This document shows, piece by piece, positions 23,037 to 30,159 of a DNA stretch of 39,348 bases. Source of the DNA: an uncultured Eubacterium sp. (GTDB taxonomy: Bacteria; Bacillota; Clostridia; Oscillospirales; Acutalibacteraceae); assembly GCA_905234995.1 (NCBI GenBank), contig CAJOJV010000010.1, positions 1 to 39,348 on the forward strand, given 5' to 3'. The stretch's first letter is position 1; every line of letters starts with the position of its first letter. Position numbers and translations under genes: made by a program. The notes below the pieces were generated by a model that was not told the origin of the DNA, did no database searches, and saw only the letters and a program-made list of their open reading frames with translations.

Positions 23037-23876
23037 ATGAGCAACGATAAAGGTTATTTAACGCCGGAGGATTATGCTGAGCCGCGCTGCCTTTTGTGCG
23101 ATGAGCCTTACGGCGTAACGCCGGAGGTTAAAAGTGTGCCGCAGCAGCGCATTATTCAGAAAATGAATGAATATATGAGCCGCAGGGATTATGCGGGCGC
23201 TGAGCGCCATCTCAAATATTGGCTTGAGGAGGCAAAACTCGGCAATGATAAAAGGGGAGAGCTGCTTATCCGCAATGAGCTTGTCGGCCACTTCCGCAAA
23301 ACGGGGAATAAGGATGGCGCTTTTGAAAGCGCTGCCGAGGCGCTGCGCCTGATTGCTGAGCTGGATTTTGACGGCACCATAAGCTCAGGTACCACCTATA
23401 TCAATATCGCAACCGCATATAACGCCTTCGGCGAGGACGAGCGCGCAATCCCGCTTTTTGAAAAGGCACGTGCGGTTTATGAAGCAAACGAAAGCACCGC
23501 GCCGGAGCTTCTCGGAGGGCTTTACAACAATATGGCGCTCACCTTCACAGCGCTCAAAAAATACGATGACGCGCTTGAGCTTTACGATAAGGCGCTCGGC
23601 GTTATGGCGAATGCGCCCGACGGCGAGCTTGAGCAGGCGATAACCCATCTCAATATGGCGGATGTTTATGATGCGCAGCTCGGCGACGGCGCGGAGAAAA
23701 AGGTTGAAGAGCTGCTCGATAAAGCGTATGATTTGCTGATTAATTCGGATGTTAAAAAGGACGGCTACTATGCCTTCGTCTGCGAAAAATGCGCGCCGGT
23801 GTTTTCACATTACGGCTATTTCCTTGCAGCGGGCGAGCTGAATAAAATTGCGGAGGCTATCTATGAAAGGGATTGA
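23037..23876 (+). CDS. TPR-repeat protein paired with a DUF4037 protein
   Basis: A 279-residue soluble protein. The start at the ATG at 23037 has TGGAG six bases upstream; the longer frame back to 22929 runs into the promoter and terminator. After a short N-terminal part with a CLLC pair (RCLLCDEPYG) it is all helical, with at least four TPR-like units such as YINIATAYNAFGEDERAIPLFEKA and YNNMALTFTALKKYDDALELYDKA. TPR proteins act as binding scaffolds. It overlaps the DUF4037 gene by 14 nt, so the two proteins are probably made in fixed ratio and act together. Its function is not known. Confidence 0.82.
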   Translation: MSNDKGYLTPEDYAEPRCLLCDEPYGVTPEVKSVPQQRIIQKMNEYMSRRDYAGAERHLKYWLEEAKLGNDKRGELLIRNELVGHFRKTGNKDGAFESAAEALRLIAELDFDGTISSGTTYINIATAYNAFGEDERAIPLFEKARAVYEANESTAPELLGGLYNNMALTFTALKKYDDALELYDKALGVMANAPDGELEQAITHLNMADVYDAQLGDGAEKKVEELLDKAYDLLINSDVKKDGYYAFVCEKCAPVFSHYGYFLAAGELNKIAEAIYERD

Positions 23877-24804
23877 GCTTTCAAAGGCGTTTTTTGAGGA
23901 GTACGGCAAGCCGATGCTTAAAGCGGAGTTTGCGGATATAATGCCCTGTCTCTGCGTGGGGCTTTTCGGCAGCGGCTCGGAATGCTTCGGATTTGATGAC
24001 GATGTTTCAACCGACCATGATTTTGAGCCGGGCTTCTGCATCTTTCTTCCGGATGAAAGCGTTGTTGACAGGCGGCAGGCATTTTTGCTTGAAAGAGCGT
24101 ATGCAAAGCTGCCAAAGGAATTTATGGGCTTCAGGCGCTCCCTTATGGCGCCCGTGGGAGGCGCGCGCAAGGGCGTTCTCAGAACGGATGAATTCTTCCT
24201 TGAAAAAATCGGCAGTCCGAACGGCGAGCTTGATTTTCAGCAGTGGCTGACGGTTCCTGAAAATGCGCTTGCAGAGGCAACAAACGGCGAAATTTTTTTT
24301 GATAACTTCGGCGAGGTTACCGAAATTCGCAAGGCGCTTTCAAAGTATCCGGAGGATATCAGGCGCAAAAAGCTTGCGGGCAATCTGCTTTTAATGGCGC
24401 AGTCCGGGCAGTATAATTTTAAGCGCTGCATAGACCATGGCGAAACCGCTGCGGCGCAGCTTGCCGTTAACGAATTCGTCAAAAGCGCGATGAACGTAAT
24501 ATTTTTATTAAATAATAGTTTTAAACCGTATTATAAATGGAGCTTCCGCGCGCTGCGTGCGCTGCCGAAGCTTTCGCTTGAAGCGGAGATTATGGAATTC
24601 CTGCTCACCACGAATAACGACGGCGAAATGGCAGAGGAAAAGTACTATGCCATTGAGGGCATAGCAGCCGATATTATTGATGAGCTTGCAGAGCAGGAGC
24701 TCACAAAGGCGATTTGCGGCGATTTGGAGAAGCACGCCTATTCCGTTAACGACGGGATTGAAAATGCCGAAATCCGCAATCTGCACGTTCTGGCTGCTAT
24801 ATAA
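23863..24804 (+). CDS. DUF4037 protein with nucleotidyltransferase-like motif
   Basis: A 313-residue protein of the DUF4037 group. Near the N-terminus LFGSGSECFGFDDDVSTDHDFE (about 34-54) resembles the GS-x(n)-DxD motif of nucleotidyltransferases, with the carboxylates followed by His. The rest is helical and rich in Leu and Lys. The ATG at 23863 has GGAGG six bases upstream and lies inside the end of the TPR gene. Members are often found in Firmicutes, but no reaction is established to my knowledge; transfer of a nucleotide to a protein, RNA or small molecule is a guess from the fold. Confidence 0.78.
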   Translation: MKGIELSKAFFEEYGKPMLKAEFADIMPCLCVGLFGSGSECFGFDDDVSTDHDFEPGFCIFLPDESVVDRRQAFLLERAYAKLPKEFMGFRRSLMAPVGGARKGVLRTDEFFLEKIGSPNGELDFQQWLTVPENALAEATNGEIFFDNFGEVTEIRKALSKYPEDIRRKKLAGNLLLMAQSGQYNFKRCIDHGETAAAQLAVNEFVKSAMNVIFLLNNSFKPYYKWSFRALRALPKLSLEAEIMEFLLTTNNDGEMAEEKYYAIEGIAADIIDELAEQELTKAICGDLEKHAYSVNDGIENAEIRNLHVLAAI

Positions 24805-24834: not shown

Positions 24835-25527
24835 ATGAAACTTCACGGTCTGCAAAAAATGACGCTCTTGGATTTTCCCGGCTGCGTTGCCTGCACTGTC
24901 TTTCTTGGCGGGTGCGATTTCCGCTGCCCGTTCTGCCATAATTTTGAGCTTATTGACGGCACCGCGCAGCCCGTTATGACGGATGGTGATTTAATCGCGT
25001 TTCTTGAAAAAAAGAGAGGGCTTATAGACGGCGTTGCAATCACGGGCGGCGAGCCCTGCCTGCATCCCGATTTGCCTCAGCTTATTGAGCGAATTCACAA
25101 TGCGGGCTTTCGCGTTAAGCTTGATACAAACGGCTATCATCCCGAAATGCTCAAAAGAATTTTGGAGCAGGGGATTGTTGAATACGTTGCAATGGATATT
25201 AAAAACAGCCCCGAAAAATATGCGCTCACCTGCGGCGTTGATGAGATTGATATGGCGCTGATTGCGGAAAGCCGCGATTTGCTTATGAACGGCAATATTG
25301 ATTATGAATTCCGCACCACGGTTATCCGTGAGCTCCACGAAAAAGAGGATTTTGAAAAAATCGGCGAATTCATCAAGGGTGCAAAGCGCTATTTCCTGCA
25401 GAGATTTACGGATAGGGATTCCGTTCCTTACGGCAATTTAACCGCGCCAACCTTTGATGAAATGTACGAATTCGCGGAAATTGCACGTAAATTTGTGCCG
25501 GATACAAAATTGCGCGGAGTAGAATAA
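24835..25527 (+). CDS. nrdG: Radical SAM activase of the anaerobic ribonucleotide reductase (NrdG2 type)
   Basis: This 230-residue radical SAM protein has the cluster motif C-x3-C-x2-C at Cys27, Cys31 and Cys34 (GGCDFRCPFCHN) and the start MTLLDFPGCVACTVF typical of the NrdG2 type. A GGE-like motif (ITGGEPC) for SAM binding follows. It installs the glycyl radical on NrdD, whose gene comes next. It has a good ribosome site (AAAGAGG) but no visible promoter of its own, so it is likely transcribed with the TPR and DUF4037 genes, outside the NrdR-like boxes that precede nrdD. Confidence 0.88.
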   Translation: MKLHGLQKMTLLDFPGCVACTVFLGGCDFRCPFCHNFELIDGTAQPVMTDGDLIAFLEKKRGLIDGVAITGGEPCLHPDLPQLIERIHNAGFRVKLDTNGYHPEMLKRILEQGIVEYVAMDIKNSPEKYALTCGVDEIDMALIAESRDLLMNGNIDYEFRTTVIRELHEKEDFEKIGEFIKGAKRYFLQRFTDRDSVPYGNLTAPTFDEMYEFAEIARKFVPDTKLRGVE

Positions 25528-25528
25528 A

Positions 25529-25575
25529 ACACTACATATTGTGGTTGAAAAAATTTTTAATAATATATATTGACA
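25529..25575 (+). promoter_or_regulatory. Tandem NrdR-like boxes
   Basis: Box 1 (25529-25544, ACACTACATATTGTGG) is close to the NrdR consensus, ACAC with an AT-rich centre and GTGT. Box 2 (25560-25575) is weaker, ATAATATATATTGACA, and matches box 1 at 10 of 16 places. Their centres are 31 bp apart, three helical turns, as usual for NrdR pairs. Box 2 overlaps the -35 hexamer of nrdD. NrdR represses ribonucleotide reductase genes when dATP is high. The nrdR gene is not in the window. Confidence 0.75.
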
Positions 25576-25598
25576 AATGCCTCTCTTAATGATAGAAT
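25570..25598 (+). promoter_or_regulatory. Sigma-A promoter of nrdD
   Basis: A perfect TTGACA (25570-25575) and TAGAAT (25593-25598) are spaced by 17 bp. Transcription should begin near 25605, giving a leader of about 80 nt. The -35 box lies within the second NrdR-like box, so bound NrdR would block polymerase directly. Confidence 0.85.
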
Positions 25599-25684: not shown

Positions 25685-28066
25685 ATGTACCAGGTCGTTA
25701 AAAGAGACGGCAGCGTCGTTGATTTTGACATCAGCAAAATCAGCGCCGCAATCGCAAAAGCATTCGATGCAGTCGGTAAGCAGTACCACCAAACAATTAT
25801 TGATTTAATCGCGCTTCACGTAACAGCGGATTTTGAAAGCAAAATTCAGGATGATAAGATTTCCGTTGAAGCTATTCAGGATAGCGTTGAAACCGTTCTT
25901 TCTGAATCAGGCTATGCGGATGTTGCAAAGGCTTATATCCTTTATCGCCGCCAGAGGGAGAAGATTCGCAATGTTAATTCCGCACTTCTCAATTATAAGG
26001 AAATCGTTGATAACTATCTTAAGATTAACGACTGGCGCGTTAAGGAAAATGCAACCGTAACATATTCCGTAGGCGGTCTTATTCTTTCAAACTCCGGTGC
26101 AATCACAGCCAACTATTGGCTTTCAGAGGTTTATGATGATGAAATTGCAGAGGCTCACCGCAATGCAGATATTCATCTTCACGATCTTTCAATGCTCACC
26201 GGTTATTGTGCAGGCTGGAGCTTAAAGCAGCTTATTCAGGAGGGTCTCGGCGGCGTAACCGGCAAGATTACCTCTTCTCCTGCAAACCATCTTTCAACCC
26301 TTTGCAATCAGATGGTTAACTTCCTCGGCATTATGCAGAATGAATGGGCAGGCGCTCAGGCATTCTCCTCCTTTGACACATATCTTGCTCCCTTCGTTAA
26401 GGTTGATAATCTCTCTCAGAAAGAGGTTAAGCAGTGCATCCAGAGCTTCGTTTACGGCGTAAACACTCCGAGCCGTTGGGGCACTCAGGCACCGTTCTCC
26501 AATATCACCCTTGACTGGACCGTTCCTAACGACCTTAAAAACCTTCCCGCAATTATCGGCGGCAAGGAGATGGATTTCACTTACGGTGAATGCCAGAAGG
26601 AAATGGATATGGTTAACAAGGCTTTCATCGAGATTATGATTGAGGGCGACGCTAACGGCAGAGGCTTCCAGTATCCTATACCGACCTATTCAATCACCCG
26701 CAATTTTGATTGGAGCGAGAGCGAGAACAATAAGCTTCTCTTTGAAATGACCGCTAAATACGGCACTCCTTATTTCTCAAACTATATCAATTCCGATATG
26801 GAGCCGAGCGACGTTCGTTCAATGTGCTGCCGTCTTCGTCTTGACCTTCGCGAGCTTCGCAAAAAGTCAGGCGGCTTCTTCGGCTCAGGTGAATCAACCG
26901 GTTCTATCGGCGTTGTTACCATCAACCTTCCCAGAATTGCTTATCAGGCAAAGGATGAGGCTGATTTCTATGCAAGGCTTGATCATCTTATGGATATTGC
27001 CGCACGCAGCTTAAAGGTGAAGAGAACGGTTATCACAACCCTTCTTGACCAGGGCCTTTATCCTTACACCAAGAGATATCTCGGCACCTTTGCAAACCAT
27101 TTTTCAACCATCGGTCTTATCGGTATGAACGAGGTTGGTCTTAATGCAAACTGGCTCAGAGCTGATTTAACGGACGCTAAGGTTCAGCGCTTTGCAAGGG
27201 ACGTTCTCAACCATATGCGCGAGCGCCTTTCCGATTATCAGGAGGAATACGGCGATCTTTATAACCTTGAGGCAACTCCTGCCGAATCCACAACTTATCG
27301 CTTTGCTAAGCACGATAAGGAGGATTTCCCGGATATCATCACTGCCAATATGAACGGCACTCCTTATTACACCAACTCTTCACATCTTCCCGTTGGTTAC
27401 ACGGAGGATATCTTCTCCGCTCTTGATATTCAGGATGATTTGCAGACTCTTTATACCTCGGGCACCGTTTTCCACGCATTCCTCGGCGAAAAGCTGCCTG
27501 ATTGGAAGGCTGCCGCAAATCTTGTTCGCAAGATTGCCGAAAACTACAAGCTGCCTTATTACACAATGAGCCCCACTTACTCCGTATGTAAGGACCACGG
27601 CTATCTAACCGGCGAGCAGTTCACCTGCCCGATTTGCGGTGCGAAGACCGAGGTTAACAGCCGTATCACCGGTTATTACAGACCTATTCAGAACTGGAAC
27701 GACGGTAAGGCTCAGGAGTATAAGGACAGAAAGGTTTATAACATCGGTCGCTCTCATTTAACTCATGAGGGTCCGAACCCTGCTCCCGTTGACGATGCTC
27801 CCGCTGAGGTAAACACCACTGCGGATGCTCCAGCAGCAGGCGGCGCAATCCTTTTCAAGACGGCAACCTGCCCTAACTGCAAGGCAGCAGCTGCGCTTCT
27901 TGATAAGGCAGGCGTTCAGTACACCGCTCTTAATGCGGATGAAAATGCAGAGCTTGTTGCTCAGTACGGCATTAAGCAGGCTCCGACCCTTATTATTCCG
28001 AACGGCGATTCTTTTGAAAAGTTCCGCGGCGTTTCGGATATCAAGGGCTGGCTTATGAACAAATAA
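25685..28066 (+). CDS. nrdD: Anaerobic ribonucleoside-triphosphate reductase with fused redoxin domain
   Basis: This 793-residue class III reductase makes dNTPs from NTPs with a glycyl radical. It begins with an ATP-cone (about 3-90, VVKRDGSVVDFDISKI) that senses ATP/dATP, followed by the barrel. The zinc site near the end is Cys635, His638, Cys648 and Cys651, and the radical glycine is Gly663 in RITGYYRP. After a linker rich in Ala and Pro (about 697-717) there is an extra C-terminal thioredoxin/glutaredoxin-like domain (718-793) with Cys-Pro-Asn-Cys at 729-732 and the cis-Pro turn QAPTLI. Formate-using NrdD proteins lack this domain, so this enzyme probably takes electrons from the fused redoxin. 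AGGGAGG seven bases before the ATG sets the start. Confidence 0.95.
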   Translation: MYQVVKRDGSVVDFDISKISAAIAKAFDAVGKQYHQTIIDLIALHVTADFESKIQDDKISVEAIQDSVETVLSESGYADVAKAYILYRRQREKIRNVNSALLNYKEIVDNYLKINDWRVKENATVTYSVGGLILSNSGAITANYWLSEVYDDEIAEAHRNADIHLHDLSMLTGYCAGWSLKQLIQEGLGGVTGKITSSPANHLSTLCNQMVNFLGIMQNEWAGAQAFSSFDTYLAPFVKVDNLSQKEVKQCIQSFVYGVNTPSRWGTQAPFSNITLDWTVPNDLKNLPAIIGGKEMDFTYGECQKEMDMVNKAFIEIMIEGDANGRGFQYPIPTYSITRNFDWSESENNKLLFEMTAKYGTPYFSNYINSDMEPSDVRSMCCRLRLDLRELRKKSGGFFGSGESTGSIGVVTINLPRIAYQAKDEADFYARLDHLMDIAARSLKVKRTVITTLLDQGLYPYTKRYLGTFANHFSTIGLIGMNEVGLNANWLRADLTDAKVQRFARDVLNHMRERLSDYQEEYGDLYNLEATPAESTTYRFAKHDKEDFPDIITANMNGTPYYTNSSHLPVGYTEDIFSALDIQDDLQTLYTSGTVFHAFLGEKLPDWKAAANLVRKIAENYKLPYYTMSPTYSVCKDHGYLTGEQFTCPICGAKTEVNSRITGYYRPIQNWNDGKAQEYKDRKVYNIGRSHLTHEGPNPAPVDDAPAEVNTTADAPAAGGAILFKTATCPNCKAAAALLDKAGVQYTALNADENAELVAQYGIKQAPTLIIPNGDSFEKFRGVSDIKGWLMNK

Positions 28067-28083
28067 GTTTAATAAAAATAACG

Positions 28084-28113
28084 ACGGGGAGGGGCTTGCC
28101 CCTTCCCGTTTTT
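28084..28113 (+). terminator. Terminator between nrdD and trxB
   Basis: An 11-bp stem with one wobble pair (28084-28094 with 28099-28109), loop CTTG, is followed by a T-run. It would lower but not necessarily abolish read-through into trxB, whose ATG is only 15 bp further on; no separate trxB promoter is evident in between. Confidence 0.85.
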
Positions 28114-28127
28114 CATAGGAGTTTATT

Positions 28128-29042
28128 ATGTATGATATAATTGTTGTGGGCGGCGGCCCCGCGGGTATGACTGCGGCGCTCTATGCCCAGCGCAACGGCA
28201 AGCAGGCGCTCGTTATTGAAAAGGCAGGCTTCGGCGGGCAGATTACCAATTCGCCCAAGGTTGAAAATTTCCCCTCAGCCATATCAATCAGCGGCAACGA
28301 GCTTGCGGATAAAATGTTTTCCCAGATTATGGAGCAGGGCGCCGATATTGAGATTGAAACCGTAACCTCCATTGAGGATAGGGGCGATATCAAAATCGTT
28401 AAAACCGAGGAGGGCGGCGCTTATGAGGCGTATGCCGTAATCATCGCAACCGGCGTTAAGCACCGTATGCTCGGGCTTGAGGGCGAGGATGAGCTCGTCG
28501 GCGAGGGCATCTCTTTCTGCGCGGTTTGCGACGGCGATTTTTACACCGATAAGGTCGTTTGCGTTGCGGGCGGCGGCAATTCCGCTTTGCAGGAGGCAAT
28601 CCTCCTTTCCGATAAATGCTCCAAGGTTATTATGCTTCAGGATTTGCCCACCTTTACAGGCGAGGAAAGGCTGCAGCAGGTTCTCTTTTCAAGGGATAAC
28701 GTTGAAAAGCACACGGGCGTAAAAATAACCCGCCTCATCAAAAACGGTGATGAGCTTGCGGGCGTTGAGATAAATGAAAACGGCGAGGTTAAGGAAATCG
28801 CGTGCGACGGGCTTTTTGTTGCAATCGGTCTTATCCCGGAAAATGAGCCGTTTAAGGAGCTTGCGGATTTAAACAGCTTCGGCTATTTTGATTCTGACGA
28901 GCAGTGCACAACCAAAACGAAGGGCATTTTTGTTGCGGGCGATTGCCGCAGCAAATTCGTCCGCCAGGTAACAACCGCTGCGGCGGACGGCACAATCGCC
29001 GCTCTTGCCGCTTGCAGATATATAAATGATATAAAGGCATAA
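28128..29042 (+). CDS. trxB: Thioredoxin reductase
   Basis: A 304-residue flavoprotein that passes electrons from NAD(P)H to a thioredoxin-like partner. The FAD motif is VVGGGPAGMTAA at the N-terminus. The redox pair is Cys131 and Cys134 in FCAVCDGDF, the nucleotide-binding motif is VAGGGNSALQEA, and the FAD C-terminal motif is GDCRSKFVRQVTTAAADG. Length is normal for low-molecular-weight TrxB. No thioredoxin gene is beside it; the nearest redoxin is the domain fused to NrdD just upstream, which is a likely substrate. Confidence 0.93.
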   Translation: MYDIIVVGGGPAGMTAALYAQRNGKQALVIEKAGFGGQITNSPKVENFPSAISISGNELADKMFSQIMEQGADIEIETVTSIEDRGDIKIVKTEEGGAYEAYAVIIATGVKHRMLGLEGEDELVGEGISFCAVCDGDFYTDKVVCVAGGGNSALQEAILLSDKCSKVIMLQDLPTFTGEERLQQVLFSRDNVEKHTGVKITRLIKNGDELAGVEINENGEVKEIACDGLFVAIGLIPENEPFKELADLNSFGYFDSDEQCTTKTKGIFVAGDCRSKFVRQVTTAAADGTIAALAACRYINDIKA

Positions 29043-29079: not shown

Positions 29080-29113
29080 AAAAAAGAAACCTTCTGATGA
29101 AGGTTTCTTTTTT
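29080..29113. terminator. Bidirectional terminator shared by trxB and azlD
   Basis: A perfect 15-bp stem (29080-29094 with 29099-29113) has AAAAAA on one side and TTTTTT on the other and a TGAT loop. It works for trxB on the plus strand and for azlCD on the minus strand; the azlD stop codon overlaps its edge. Confidence 0.93.
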
Positions 29114-29432
29114 ATATTAAATGTTGAATTATCAGTTCAGATATGAAAACTCCTGCCGATGCGCCGATTGCAACCGTCAGCAGCCCGCGCTTGAAATATG
29201 CCAGAATGAGCGCCACTGCAACGCCGATTGCCGCCGTAATAATATGGTTCGTTGCAAAGAAAACTGCGGGTATCGTCATAACGCTTAGTACAGCGTAGGG
29301 CATATAGTGCAGAAATGAAAGAATGAATTTATTCTCAATCTTTTTCTTTATCAGCACGAGCGGTATTGCCCTGACGAGATAGGTCACAAGCGCCATCGTT
29401 GCCAGATAGGGGAGGAAAGCGTTAAACTCCAT
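29112..29432 (-). CDS. azlD: AzlD-type branched-chain amino acid exporter subunit
   Basis: A 106-residue protein with about four hydrophobic helices, the small partner of AzlC in export of branched-chain amino acids. The true start is the ATG at 29432, with GGAGG six bases upstream; the longer frame to 29495 lies inside azlC and is very basic. Motifs MALVTYLVRAIPLVL and YMPYAVLSVMTIPAVFF are typical of the family. It overlaps azlC by 11 nt. Confidence 0.88.
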   Translation of the reverse strand: MEFNAFLPYLATMALVTYLVRAIPLVLIKKKIENKFILSFLHYMPYAVLSVMTIPAVFFATNHIITAAIGVAVALILAYFKRGLLTVAIGASAGVFISELIIQHLI

Positions 29433-30159
29433 TTTCGCCCTCCTTTTCCGTTTCGCCAATAGGGAAAAGCAGCGCCGCAATTGCGCTTGCCGCAACGGCG
29501 CAGATGATTACAACGAAACCGCTGTGCACCTTTGAAAGCAGCGGAATAAAGCGGAATGCGCAGCTCAGCGCAATTGCAATAATCACGCAGAAAAGCACGT
29601 GCTTATTCTCCTTTGCAGGGGGCACGACTATTGCAATAAACATTCCGTAAATCGCAATTCCAAGCGCCGAAATCAGCAGGGCAGGCAGGATGTTGCCCGC
29701 AACAGCGCCAACTATCGTGCCCGCGCTCCAGCCGAGATAAGGCGTTAAAATCAGCCCGAACATATAGCTTTTGCCAACGGATTTTTTGGATGCCGCAACG
29801 GCAAAAACCTCGTCCGTGTTAACGAATGCAATCAAGAAGCGGTCTATCAGTGAAACGCTGCCGTCCAGCTTCTGCGAAAGGGTAACGCTCATCAGCGCAT
29901 AGCGCAGGTTGATTATAAGCTGGCTTGCCGCAAGCTCAAACAGCGTGCCGCCCGAAACGATAATCGGAACCGCCGCAAGCTGCCCTGCGGAGGTAACGTT
30001 CGTCATTGAAATCAGCAGCGCCTCAAGCGAGGTTAACCCGTGCGCAACGGTGAAAATTCCGAATGCAAACGCCACTGAAAAGTAGCCCATGCAAATCGGC
30101 AGCCCGTCAATTATTCCTTTTAAAAACGTGTTTTCTTTAATGTTTTTGGTTTCTTTCAT
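29422..30159 (-). CDS. azlC: AzlC-type branched-chain amino acid exporter subunit
   Basis: A 245-residue membrane protein of the AzlC family. The start GIIDGLPICMGYFSVAFAFGI and the block TSAGQLAAVPII are family hallmarks, as is NLRYALMSVTLS. With AzlD it forms a two-part exporter for leucine-type amino acids and analogues. The ribosome site before the ATG is weak. A hairpin lies just upstream (30176-30197), so transcription may come by read-through from the GH3 gene or from a promoter I could not identify. Confidence 0.88.
   Translation of the reverse strand: MKETKNIKENTFLKGIIDGLPICMGYFSVAFAFGIFTVAHGLTSLEALLISMTNVTSAGQLAAVPIIVSGGTLFELAASQLIINLRYALMSVTLSQKLDGSVSLIDRFLIAFVNTDEVFAVAASKKSVGKSYMFGLILTPYLGWSAGTIVGAVAGNILPALLISALGIAIYGMFIAIVVPPAKENKHVLFCVIIAIALSCAFRFIPLLSKVHSGFVVIICAVAASAIAALLFPIGETEKEGENGV

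Follow-up and report, generated by a model that had tools for sequence, protein, structure and literature searches.

We analyzed a 39,348-nucleotide (nt) stretch of DNA from an uncultured Eubacterium sp. (GenBank assembly GCA_905234995.1, contig CAJOJV010000010.1, positions 1 to 39,348 of the forward strand; hereafter, the window) and found that it encodes a class III ribonucleotide reductase (RNR) catalytic subunit, NrdD, which ends in a redoxin domain and is followed by trxB, a gene for a thioredoxin-reductase-like flavoprotein. Sequence comparison revealed the fusion itself, its likely single origin, the conservation of its redox residues and active-site motif, and the linkage, co-divergence, and co-occurrence of TrxB. 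We consider it probable that the protein is an NrdD2-like class III RNR that supplies its own dithiol reductant as a C-terminal tail and that this tail is re-reduced by the adjacent TrxB, itself likely fed by NADH. Specifically, each turnover would leave Cys175 disulfide-bonded to Cys381/Cys382 of the finger loop; the tethered redoxin, carrying Cys729/Cys732, would use its flexible linker to move in, either in cis or from the opposite protomer, and reduce this disulfide; and the adjacent TrxB would re-reduce the tail, most likely with NADH electrons. Within this scheme, we infer the electron flow from TrxB through the tail to the active site, the use of NADH as donor, and the support of turnover and not merely of activation. 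The features of the fused gene are as follows (window coordinates):

25685..28066, + strand: nrdD-redoxin fusion, class III RNR catalytic subunit, 793 residues (PRK08270, 1155 bits; cut-off 548)
25691..25960, + strand: ATP-cone, residues 3-92 (PF03477, 80.7 bits)
26207..26209, + strand: Cys175, predicted beta-A active-site cysteine in GYCAGWS (role by analogy with the class III literature)
26822..26833, + strand: MCCR finger loop, Met380-Cys381-Cys382-Arg383 (conserved motif)
27269..27271, + strand: Glu529, equivalent of the Thermotoga maritima proton donor Glu495 (alignment to 4coi; role from PMC9669993)
27587..27637, + strand: zinc-site residues Cys635, His638, Cys648, and Cys651 (invariant columns in 43 rows; function by analogy)
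27671..27673, + strand: Gly663, predicted glycyl-radical residue in RITGYY (invariant column in 43 rows)
27743..27838, + strand: Pro/Ala-rich linker, residues 687-718 (predicted local distance difference test score, pLDDT, below 50 at residues 702-718; length varies between loci)
27839..28063, + strand: C-terminal redoxin domain, residues 719-793 (PF00462, PF00085, AlphaFold2 pLDDT, and Foldseek)
27869..27880, + strand: redox pair Cys729-Pro-Asn-Cys732 (both cysteines kept in every one of the 146 fused frames)
27983..27985, + strand: Pro767, thioredoxin-fold cis-Pro (likewise kept in every fused frame)

The NRDD domain occupies residues 121-685 (Pfam PF13597, 643.6 bits; cut-off 26.2), and this domain, together with the glycyl-radical motif, the zinc cysteines, and NrdG nearby, identifies the protein as a class III RNR. 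Its double-cysteine finger loop and its equivalent of T. maritima Glu495 are the two active-site traits of NrdD2. The comparison covered 110 loci, namely the window, 29 genomes of the same family, and 80 genome contigs (107 loci after removal of three near-copies). Because these contigs were the best 80 of 592 candidates, linkage counts lean toward near kin. Outside metagenome bins, the Butyrivibrio sp. INlla16 and FCS014 records also encode the fusion. The MCCR loop was found in 110 of 110 loci and in 142 of 143 aligned rows of fused enzymes; Cys175 was present in 142 of 143 rows, with a gap in the remaining one, and Glu529 was kept in all 143. One viral nrdD (L129) is broken into pieces; its largest piece was counted as lost/other in the rows for these three features, and the locus was excluded from the tree described below. 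At another locus (L171, genome G172), the fused NrdD reads MYCR for MCCR and CVxC in its tail, and the same genome has a second, tail-less NrdD.

A double-cysteine loop combined with an active-site glutamate has been tied to thioredoxin use (PMC9669993), and thioredoxin was shown to be the reductant of Neisseria bacilliformis NrdD2, according to papers citing that work (PMC9669993 and PMC4493059). Because MCCR and Glu529 also occur in all 21 tail-less sister enzymes, the active site by itself is no proof that the tail is the reductant. The solved NrdDs nearest in sequence (8p23, 4coi, and 4u3e) cover the NrdD core only. An AlphaFold2 model of the full-length 793-residue protein, built from 43 rows, was weak, with a mean pLDDT of 70.3 and values below 50 in the finger loop (368-406) and the linker (702-718).

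The sequence-only reading had described the end of NrdD as a thioredoxin/glutaredoxin-like domain of 76 residues with a CPNC pair and a cis-Pro, followed by a thioredoxin reductase gene. Both Pfam and AlphaFold2 bear this out, except that the domain counts 75 residues from residue 719 (position 27839) to the stop; the next gene is indeed trxB (28128-29042). The same tail was matched by Glutaredoxin PF00462 (residues 722-771, 31.7 bits; cut-off 22.9) and by Thioredoxin PF00085 (723-785, 26.4 bits; cut-off 23.5). Modeled alone, it gave a mean pLDDT of 96.3 and the element order b-a-b-a-b-b-a, with the cis-Pro in QAPTL. A Foldseek search with this model returned 74 PDB chains at E <= 0.001. Among the 50 matches listed, the best was KaiB (2.4e-5), most others were thioredoxins or thioredoxin-fold domains (PDI and Grx2), and one was 9bxs_E, a chain of a Bacillus subtilis RNR complex. 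With its Trx/Grx fold, CxxC pair, and cis-Pro on an RNR polypeptide, the protein is a redoxin-RNR fusion. The YruB, Grx3, GRX_bact, and NrdH models scored the tail alone at only 23.6-27.0 bits against cut-offs of 85.75-129. At the equivalog level, no glutaredoxin, NrdH, or thioredoxin model came near its cut-off, and the tail is therefore a diverged redoxin that fits none of these subfamilies plainly.

No fused reading frame of the 146, 24 of which are viral, lacked Cys729, Cys732, or Pro767; these frames were collected without a motif filter, by a tail profile that was itself built from Cys-bearing tails. This check supersedes an earlier alignment of 78 tails, whose members had been chosen by the CxxC pattern, so that its invariant columns were partly selected. 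No further tail column reached 98% conservation, and identity to the window tail fell to 26%. MCCR, CP[N/K]C, and the cis-Pro were found together in all 110 loci, across which the distance from residue 686 to the CxxC ranged from 27 to 115 residues. Redox residues that stay fixed while tail sequence and linker length vary are what one expects of a redox module on a tether, and the comparison supports the view that the tail is a strongly constrained redoxin attached covalently. A fusion that is incidental or has decayed and is devoid of redox function, as the divergent sequence, the variable linker length, and the occasional loss of the tail might suggest, is hard to reconcile with a catalytic Cys pair and cis-Pro that alone are kept in all 146 tails, viral ones included, or with the persistence of the tail in six viral enzymes that lack the ATP-cone; we regard this explanation as highly improbable.

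A fused-type NrdD was found in 44 of the 150 genomes sampled from the family. The tail was visible in 42 of them; in the other two (G122 and G065), a contig end truncates the gene. In a sample of the phylum, 99 of 299 genomes gave an NrdD match at 1e-150. Fifteen of these (69-100% identity) belonged to the fused type: 12 had the tail, two lacked it, and one was cut; the remaining matches were 48-55% identical and ended before the tail (by residue 712), and the tail profile, applied to 15 of them, detected a tail in none. On a 121-row FastTree phylogeny of the core, the tail label required 5 changes, as compared to a mean of 26 after shuffling. One gain and four losses (G218, G276, and viral L144 and L146) is the simplest reading of this tree, which was built with FastTree only, carries no bootstrap values, gives by itself no direction of gain or loss, and has exclusively tail-less outgroup rows. 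Thus read, the tail looks to have been gained once, in a clade that spans several families and viral contigs. The tail profile detected no redoxin in the examined flanks of the 21 tail-less sister NrdDs, and no TrxB was found there either. In the sisters, nrdG, where seen, lies 3' of nrdD; no nrdG was found in the flanking DNA examined for L118, L183, L184, L188, and L189.

Thirty-four viral loci were found, 24 with the tail, and six of those without the ATP-cone. A PHROGs scan of ten neighbor proteins identified terminase in L148, exonuclease and polymerase-labeled families in L139, helicase and polymerase-labeled families in L142, RNA ligase in L145, and DNA polymerase in L128. In L148, a 318-kb viral contig, the fused nrdD lies directly 3' of the terminase large-subunit gene. 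A phage record of 57 kb from human feces, which carries no annotation, likewise encodes the full fusion (75.6%, residues 1-792), and the viral record MT835493.1 (L211) encodes an NrdD-redoxin fusion. Three viral loci (L156, L158, and L160) have fused NrdD frames of 1,328-1,651 residues in which the core is split in three, as if by inteins.

The features of the downstream gene and of the gap that precedes it are as follows:

28083..28110, + strand: terminator-like hairpin and T run in the nrdD/trxB gap (site scan and folding energy)
28128..29042, + strand: trxB, thioredoxin-reductase-like flavoprotein, 304 residues (TIGR01292, 293 bits, below the 343-bit cut-off)
28500..28508, + strand: TrxB residues 125-127, GEG replacing the docking motif G[R/K]G (motif definition from PMC5627308)
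28518..28529, + strand: TrxB redox pair CAVC, residues 131-134 (sequence motif)
28569..28586, + strand: TrxB GGGNSA, residues 148-153, pyrophosphate-binding motif kept (sequence motif)
28638..28646, + strand: TrxB QDL, residues 171-173, at the place of HRR in NADPH-type enzymes (sequence motif)

In 83 of the 110 loci, trxB lies downstream of nrdD and in the same orientation. The window TrxB has GGGNSA but reads QDL for HRR and so departs from NADPH-type thioredoxin reductases (TrxRs); at the same position, PDB entry 7jyp_A, which we take to be a Thermosipho enzyme, reads QNLPYLT. The NADPH-type motif HRRxxxR and the docking motif G[R/K]G are defined in PMC5627308, according to which the T. maritima TR has lost HRR and prefers NADH. 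Because HRR is lost while GGGxxA is kept, as in this NADH-preferring enzyme and in 7jyp, the motif points to NADH as the likeliest electron donor of TrxB. HRR is absent from 67 of the 83 linked TrxBs and present at the aligned position in 16. The docking GxG reads G[E/D/N]G in 61 of the 67 non-HRR copies versus 0 of the 16 HRR ones, a link that rests on four starred independent pairs, too few for the 0.05 level. Entries 6gna/6gnc and 5nii scored lower with the nrdD-linked TrxB than other TrxR entries did. The best PHROG of the window TrxB is phrog_6397 (199 bits), labeled as RNR large subunit; the label may be wrong or may stem from a fusion that involves a phage TrxB.

Across 79 loci, the distances of tail and TrxB remained correlated given the core, with a partial correlation of 0.63 (half-samples, 0.53-0.72). 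The controls were weak: 0.20 for tail and NrdG and 0.28 for NrdG and TrxB given the core and, given the 5' part of the core, 0.23 for its 3' part and TrxB and 0.27 for the ATP-cone and TrxB. The 64 non-HRR rows alone gave 0.63 for tail and TrxB, 0.23 for tail and NrdG, and 0.41 for NrdG and TrxB. In the family sample, a TrxB scoring more than 300 bits against that of the window was present in 30 of the 44 genomes with a fused-type NrdD and in none of the other 106, a contrast for which the 300-bit threshold was set post hoc, at a gap in the list, and in which closeness to the window TrxB also reflects kinship. Four of the 30 keep this TrxB on another contig (G087, G133, and G076) or 127 kb away (G146). 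Two genomes of the same genus in the sample have neither a fused-type NrdD nor such a TrxB. A second TrxB match at 1e-50 was found in 11 of the 44 fused-type genomes, and thus the special TrxB is not simply the housekeeping copy. The neighboring TrxB is distinctive and probably dedicated to the fused NrdD.

Besides the post hoc threshold and the small number of independent pairs just mentioned, several observations weigh against our interpretation. Some of them concern formate. Met380 of the formate-competent motif is kept, and because of this residue the enzyme may still use formate. With both the glutamate and the finger-loop methionine present, it falls outside the thioredoxin-only NrdD group of PMC9669993; some NrdD2 enzymes do possess the finger-loop methionine (PMC4493059). 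Pyruvate formate-lyase (PFL), scored as a match over the model cut-off in the 150 family genomes, was as frequent with the fused type (23 of 44) as without it (61 of 106; Fisher p 0.59), and we rejected the simple version in which the tail replaces formate.

These observations, together with the losses of the tail, would suit an enzyme in which formate drives turnover while the tail and TrxB keep the active-site cysteines reduced for installation of the glycyl radical, or repair the enzyme after oxidative stress. The combination of Glu529 with the double cysteine is, however, linked to formate-independent reduction, the PFL model had no match in the genome from which the window derives, and the co-occurrence and co-divergence of the TrxB subtype also speak against such a role, which we therefore consider unlikely. 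The enzyme could instead accept two fuels, namely formate through Met380/Cys175 when available and the redoxin tail otherwise. This possibility overlaps with our preferred explanation, the two not being mutually exclusive, and deserves serious thought even though we would not bet on it: Met-containing double-cysteine enzymes appear equipped for either reductant (PMC9669993), and fused-type genomes occur both with and without PFL, but the presence of MCCR and Glu529 in every tail-less sister row makes these residues uninformative as to the tail.

Other points against the built-in dithiol reductant concern the tail itself. In two genomes (L169 in G218 and L172 in G276) and two viral contigs (L144 and L146), it has been lost, and NrdD ends right after the glycyl-radical domain; the tail profile found no redoxin in the 1.5 kb that follow L169 and L172 or in the 4 kb that follow L144 and L146. 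The tail thus seems dispensable in some settings. Its co-divergence with TrxB could come in part from transfer of tail and trxB as a block. Simple transfer of the 3' end is disfavored, as the 3' part of the core, though adjoining the tail, does not track TrxB; a transferred block would hence need a breakpoint in the linker. We do not claim charge complementarity between tail and TrxB: uncorrected mean charges were +1.6 with the 67 non-HRR and -0.8 with the 16 HRR TrxBs, and this trend disappeared on independent pairs, which had no consistent direction.

The remaining points concern the partnership with trxB. The gene was missing in 20 of the 110 loci, each of the 20 with at least 1,150 downstream bases (nine of them judged on just 1.2-1.6 kb), and seven more had too little DNA. 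Outside the family, the 11 fused loci included one with trxB downstream, nine without it within ~1.4 kb, and one with too little DNA. Twelve of 13 genomes searched there (11 fused and two tail-lost) gave TrxB matches. Motifs were readable at 10 of 13 loci inspected; nine were of the HRR type and one (a second copy, in G393) was not, and the E/D/N docking motif occurred in none of the 10. Because these TrxBs are mostly of the ordinary HRR type, the fusion is broad and the distinctive TrxB narrower. Fused enzymes outside the family are probably recharged by ordinary TrxBs, and the fusion seems to predate the dedicated TrxB. The fusion proved widespread, with trxB at 83 of 110 loci, and the linkage proved narrower than the fusion.

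Within the window, a stable hairpin followed by Ts lies in the 61-nt gap between nrdD and trxB (-23.1 kcal/mol for a 71-nt stretch, z -3.0). Among the 41 loci whose gap spans 25-400 nt, the window included, 16 have a hairpin of -12 kcal/mol or lower before a T run. Terminator-like sites numbered 3 in the region versus 5.9 expected. The gap measured at most 20 nt in 29 and at most 60 nt in 40 of 83 loci. Because hairpins recur between the two genes, trxB is possibly made in smaller amounts than nrdD; its expression may often lie below that of nrdD, as if attenuated.

The genome of the window is 96.6% complete. It has one NrdD only, and no class I/II RNR large subunit was found in it, the fused NrdD being the only RNR found. 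The tail is its only PF00462 match, and its only PF00085 match besides the tail is a separate 102-residue TrxA (WCGPC), which adjoins a second, atypical TrxR (G000:C16:9869-11047; loci L115 and L112). This TrxR lacks both pyridine-nucleotide motifs, and its closest PDB entries are 5nii and 6gna, which we take to be DvTRi and FFTR, pyridine-nucleotide-independent enzymes; the frame upstream of the pair is presumably glutathione-peroxidase-like. The tail might thus be recharged by this pair or by another cell reductant while the neighboring TrxB serves other substrates. The existence of the pair, a hairpin that may uncouple trxB, and the mostly ordinary TrxBs outside the family would agree with such an arrangement; the tail-TrxB co-divergence with its weak control correlations, the restriction of the TrxB subtype to fused-type genomes in the family sample, and the second TrxB matches in some of these genomes argue for the adjacent TrxB, and we judge recharging from elsewhere improbable. 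The sequence-only reading, which saw no separate thioredoxin, was correct for the locus and not for the genome. Its self-contained chain retains a constrained tail, a redoxin-type active site, and a co-diverging TrxB, and is weakened by the second Trx/TrxR pair, the hairpin, and the kept Met380; the NAD(P)H with which it fed TrxB is better narrowed to NADH, the likelier donor since HRRxxxR is absent. Amended in this way, the chain is the mechanism with the most support.

The elements upstream of the fused gene are as follows:

24835..25527, + strand: nrdG, radical S-adenosylmethionine activase of the NrdG2 type (TIGR02495 NrdG2, 197 bits; cut-off 131)
25529..25544, + strand: NrdR-box-like site 1, 14/16 (match to the NrdR-box consensus)
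25560..25575, + strand: NrdR-box-like site 2, 11/16, overlapping the -35 element (match to the NrdR-box consensus)
25570..25598, + strand: promoter-like TTGACA-17-TAGAAT, 11/12, before nrdD (consensus match only)

The genes nrdG, nrdD, and trxB follow one another in this order on the + strand. NrdR-box-like site 1 has two mismatches and is the sole match in the window at three or fewer; at least one such match arose in 16 of 100 shuffles. The two boxes lie 31 base pairs apart, with a pair score of 25/32 and a weak second box. At 85 of 108 loci, paired NrdR-like sites scored at least 21; after base shuffling of the upstream regions, such pairs were present in 2 of 108. Promoter-like sites numbered 9 in the region versus 6.6 expected. 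A gene for a DUF4037 protein (23848-24804) lies immediately 5' of nrdG, and azlD and azlC (branched-chain amino acid transport; 29112-30159, - strand) are convergent to trxB.

The window enzyme resembles NrdD2 of N. bacilliformis and T. maritima in its double-cysteine loop, Glu529 equivalent, and catalytic and glycyl-radical domains, but differs in having the redoxin within the polypeptide and an MCCR, not SCCR, loop. In the NrdD3 system, NrdH exists as a free protein that receives its electrons from ferredoxin disulfide reductase. The Methanosarcina barkeri NrdD3/NrdH pair is alike in using a glutaredoxin-like reductant of NrdD (PMC9176816); formate, thioredoxin, and NrdH are the three ways of electron supply to class III RNRs in print (PMC9176816). 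Among TrxRs, the NADH-type T. maritima TmTR and Desulfovibrio vulgaris TR3 have likewise lost HRR (PMC5627308), whereas the window TrxB adjoins nrdD and most linked copies have E/D/N in the docking GxG. FFTR and DvTRi, which the C16 TrxR resembles, also lack HRR; unlike these, the nrdD-linked TrxB keeps the pyrophosphate motif.

A RefSeq search (Rozman Grinberg 2018, PMC6187632) had reported Grx fusions in NrdA, NrdB, NrdD, and NrdJ, with one grx::nrdD listed, from Lachnospiraceae bacterium TWA4; according to that paper, a fused Grx is an efficient reductant in a class I RNR. As in our protein, a redoxin is linked covalently to a subunit of RNR in these fusions; the one assayed there carries its Grx at the N terminus of a class I NrdB and uses glutathione, whereas the window fusion is C-terminal, of class III, widespread, and accompanied by a distinctive TrxB. 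In the literature searched, we found the NrdD fusion in that one line of PMC6187632, and nothing on its link to trxB, its extent, its likely single origin, or its spread in phages. A Grx-NrdD fusion was thus already known, having been listed in 2018, and the distinctive TrxB partner of the fused NrdD is new here.

Taken further, the data may describe a closed NADH-driven machine for deoxynucleoside triphosphate (dNTP) production: a single-origin clade would have internalized its reductant, one family would have evolved a private NADH-type TrxB with a docking surface altered to suit the tail, the system would be independent of formate, NADPH, and general thioredoxin, and phages would have taken the fused enzyme and rely on the TrxB of the host. 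We put this fuller scenario forward tentatively, as one that could be right but that we would not yet expect to hold as a whole. There is, to our knowledge, no agreed account of how protein reductants gain access to the buried active site in class III enzymes. With the redoxin tethered, the partner is given, so that trapping of a mixed disulfide between Cys729 and Cys175, Cys381, or Cys382 becomes practical. The distinctive TrxB is a natural test of how TrxR specificity and NADH use evolve, and it would link DNA synthesis in gut anaerobes, and in phages with the gene, to one defined source of electrons. The oxygen-sensitive dNTP-making enzyme of gut Clostridia and some phages has a built-in thioredoxin-like arm.

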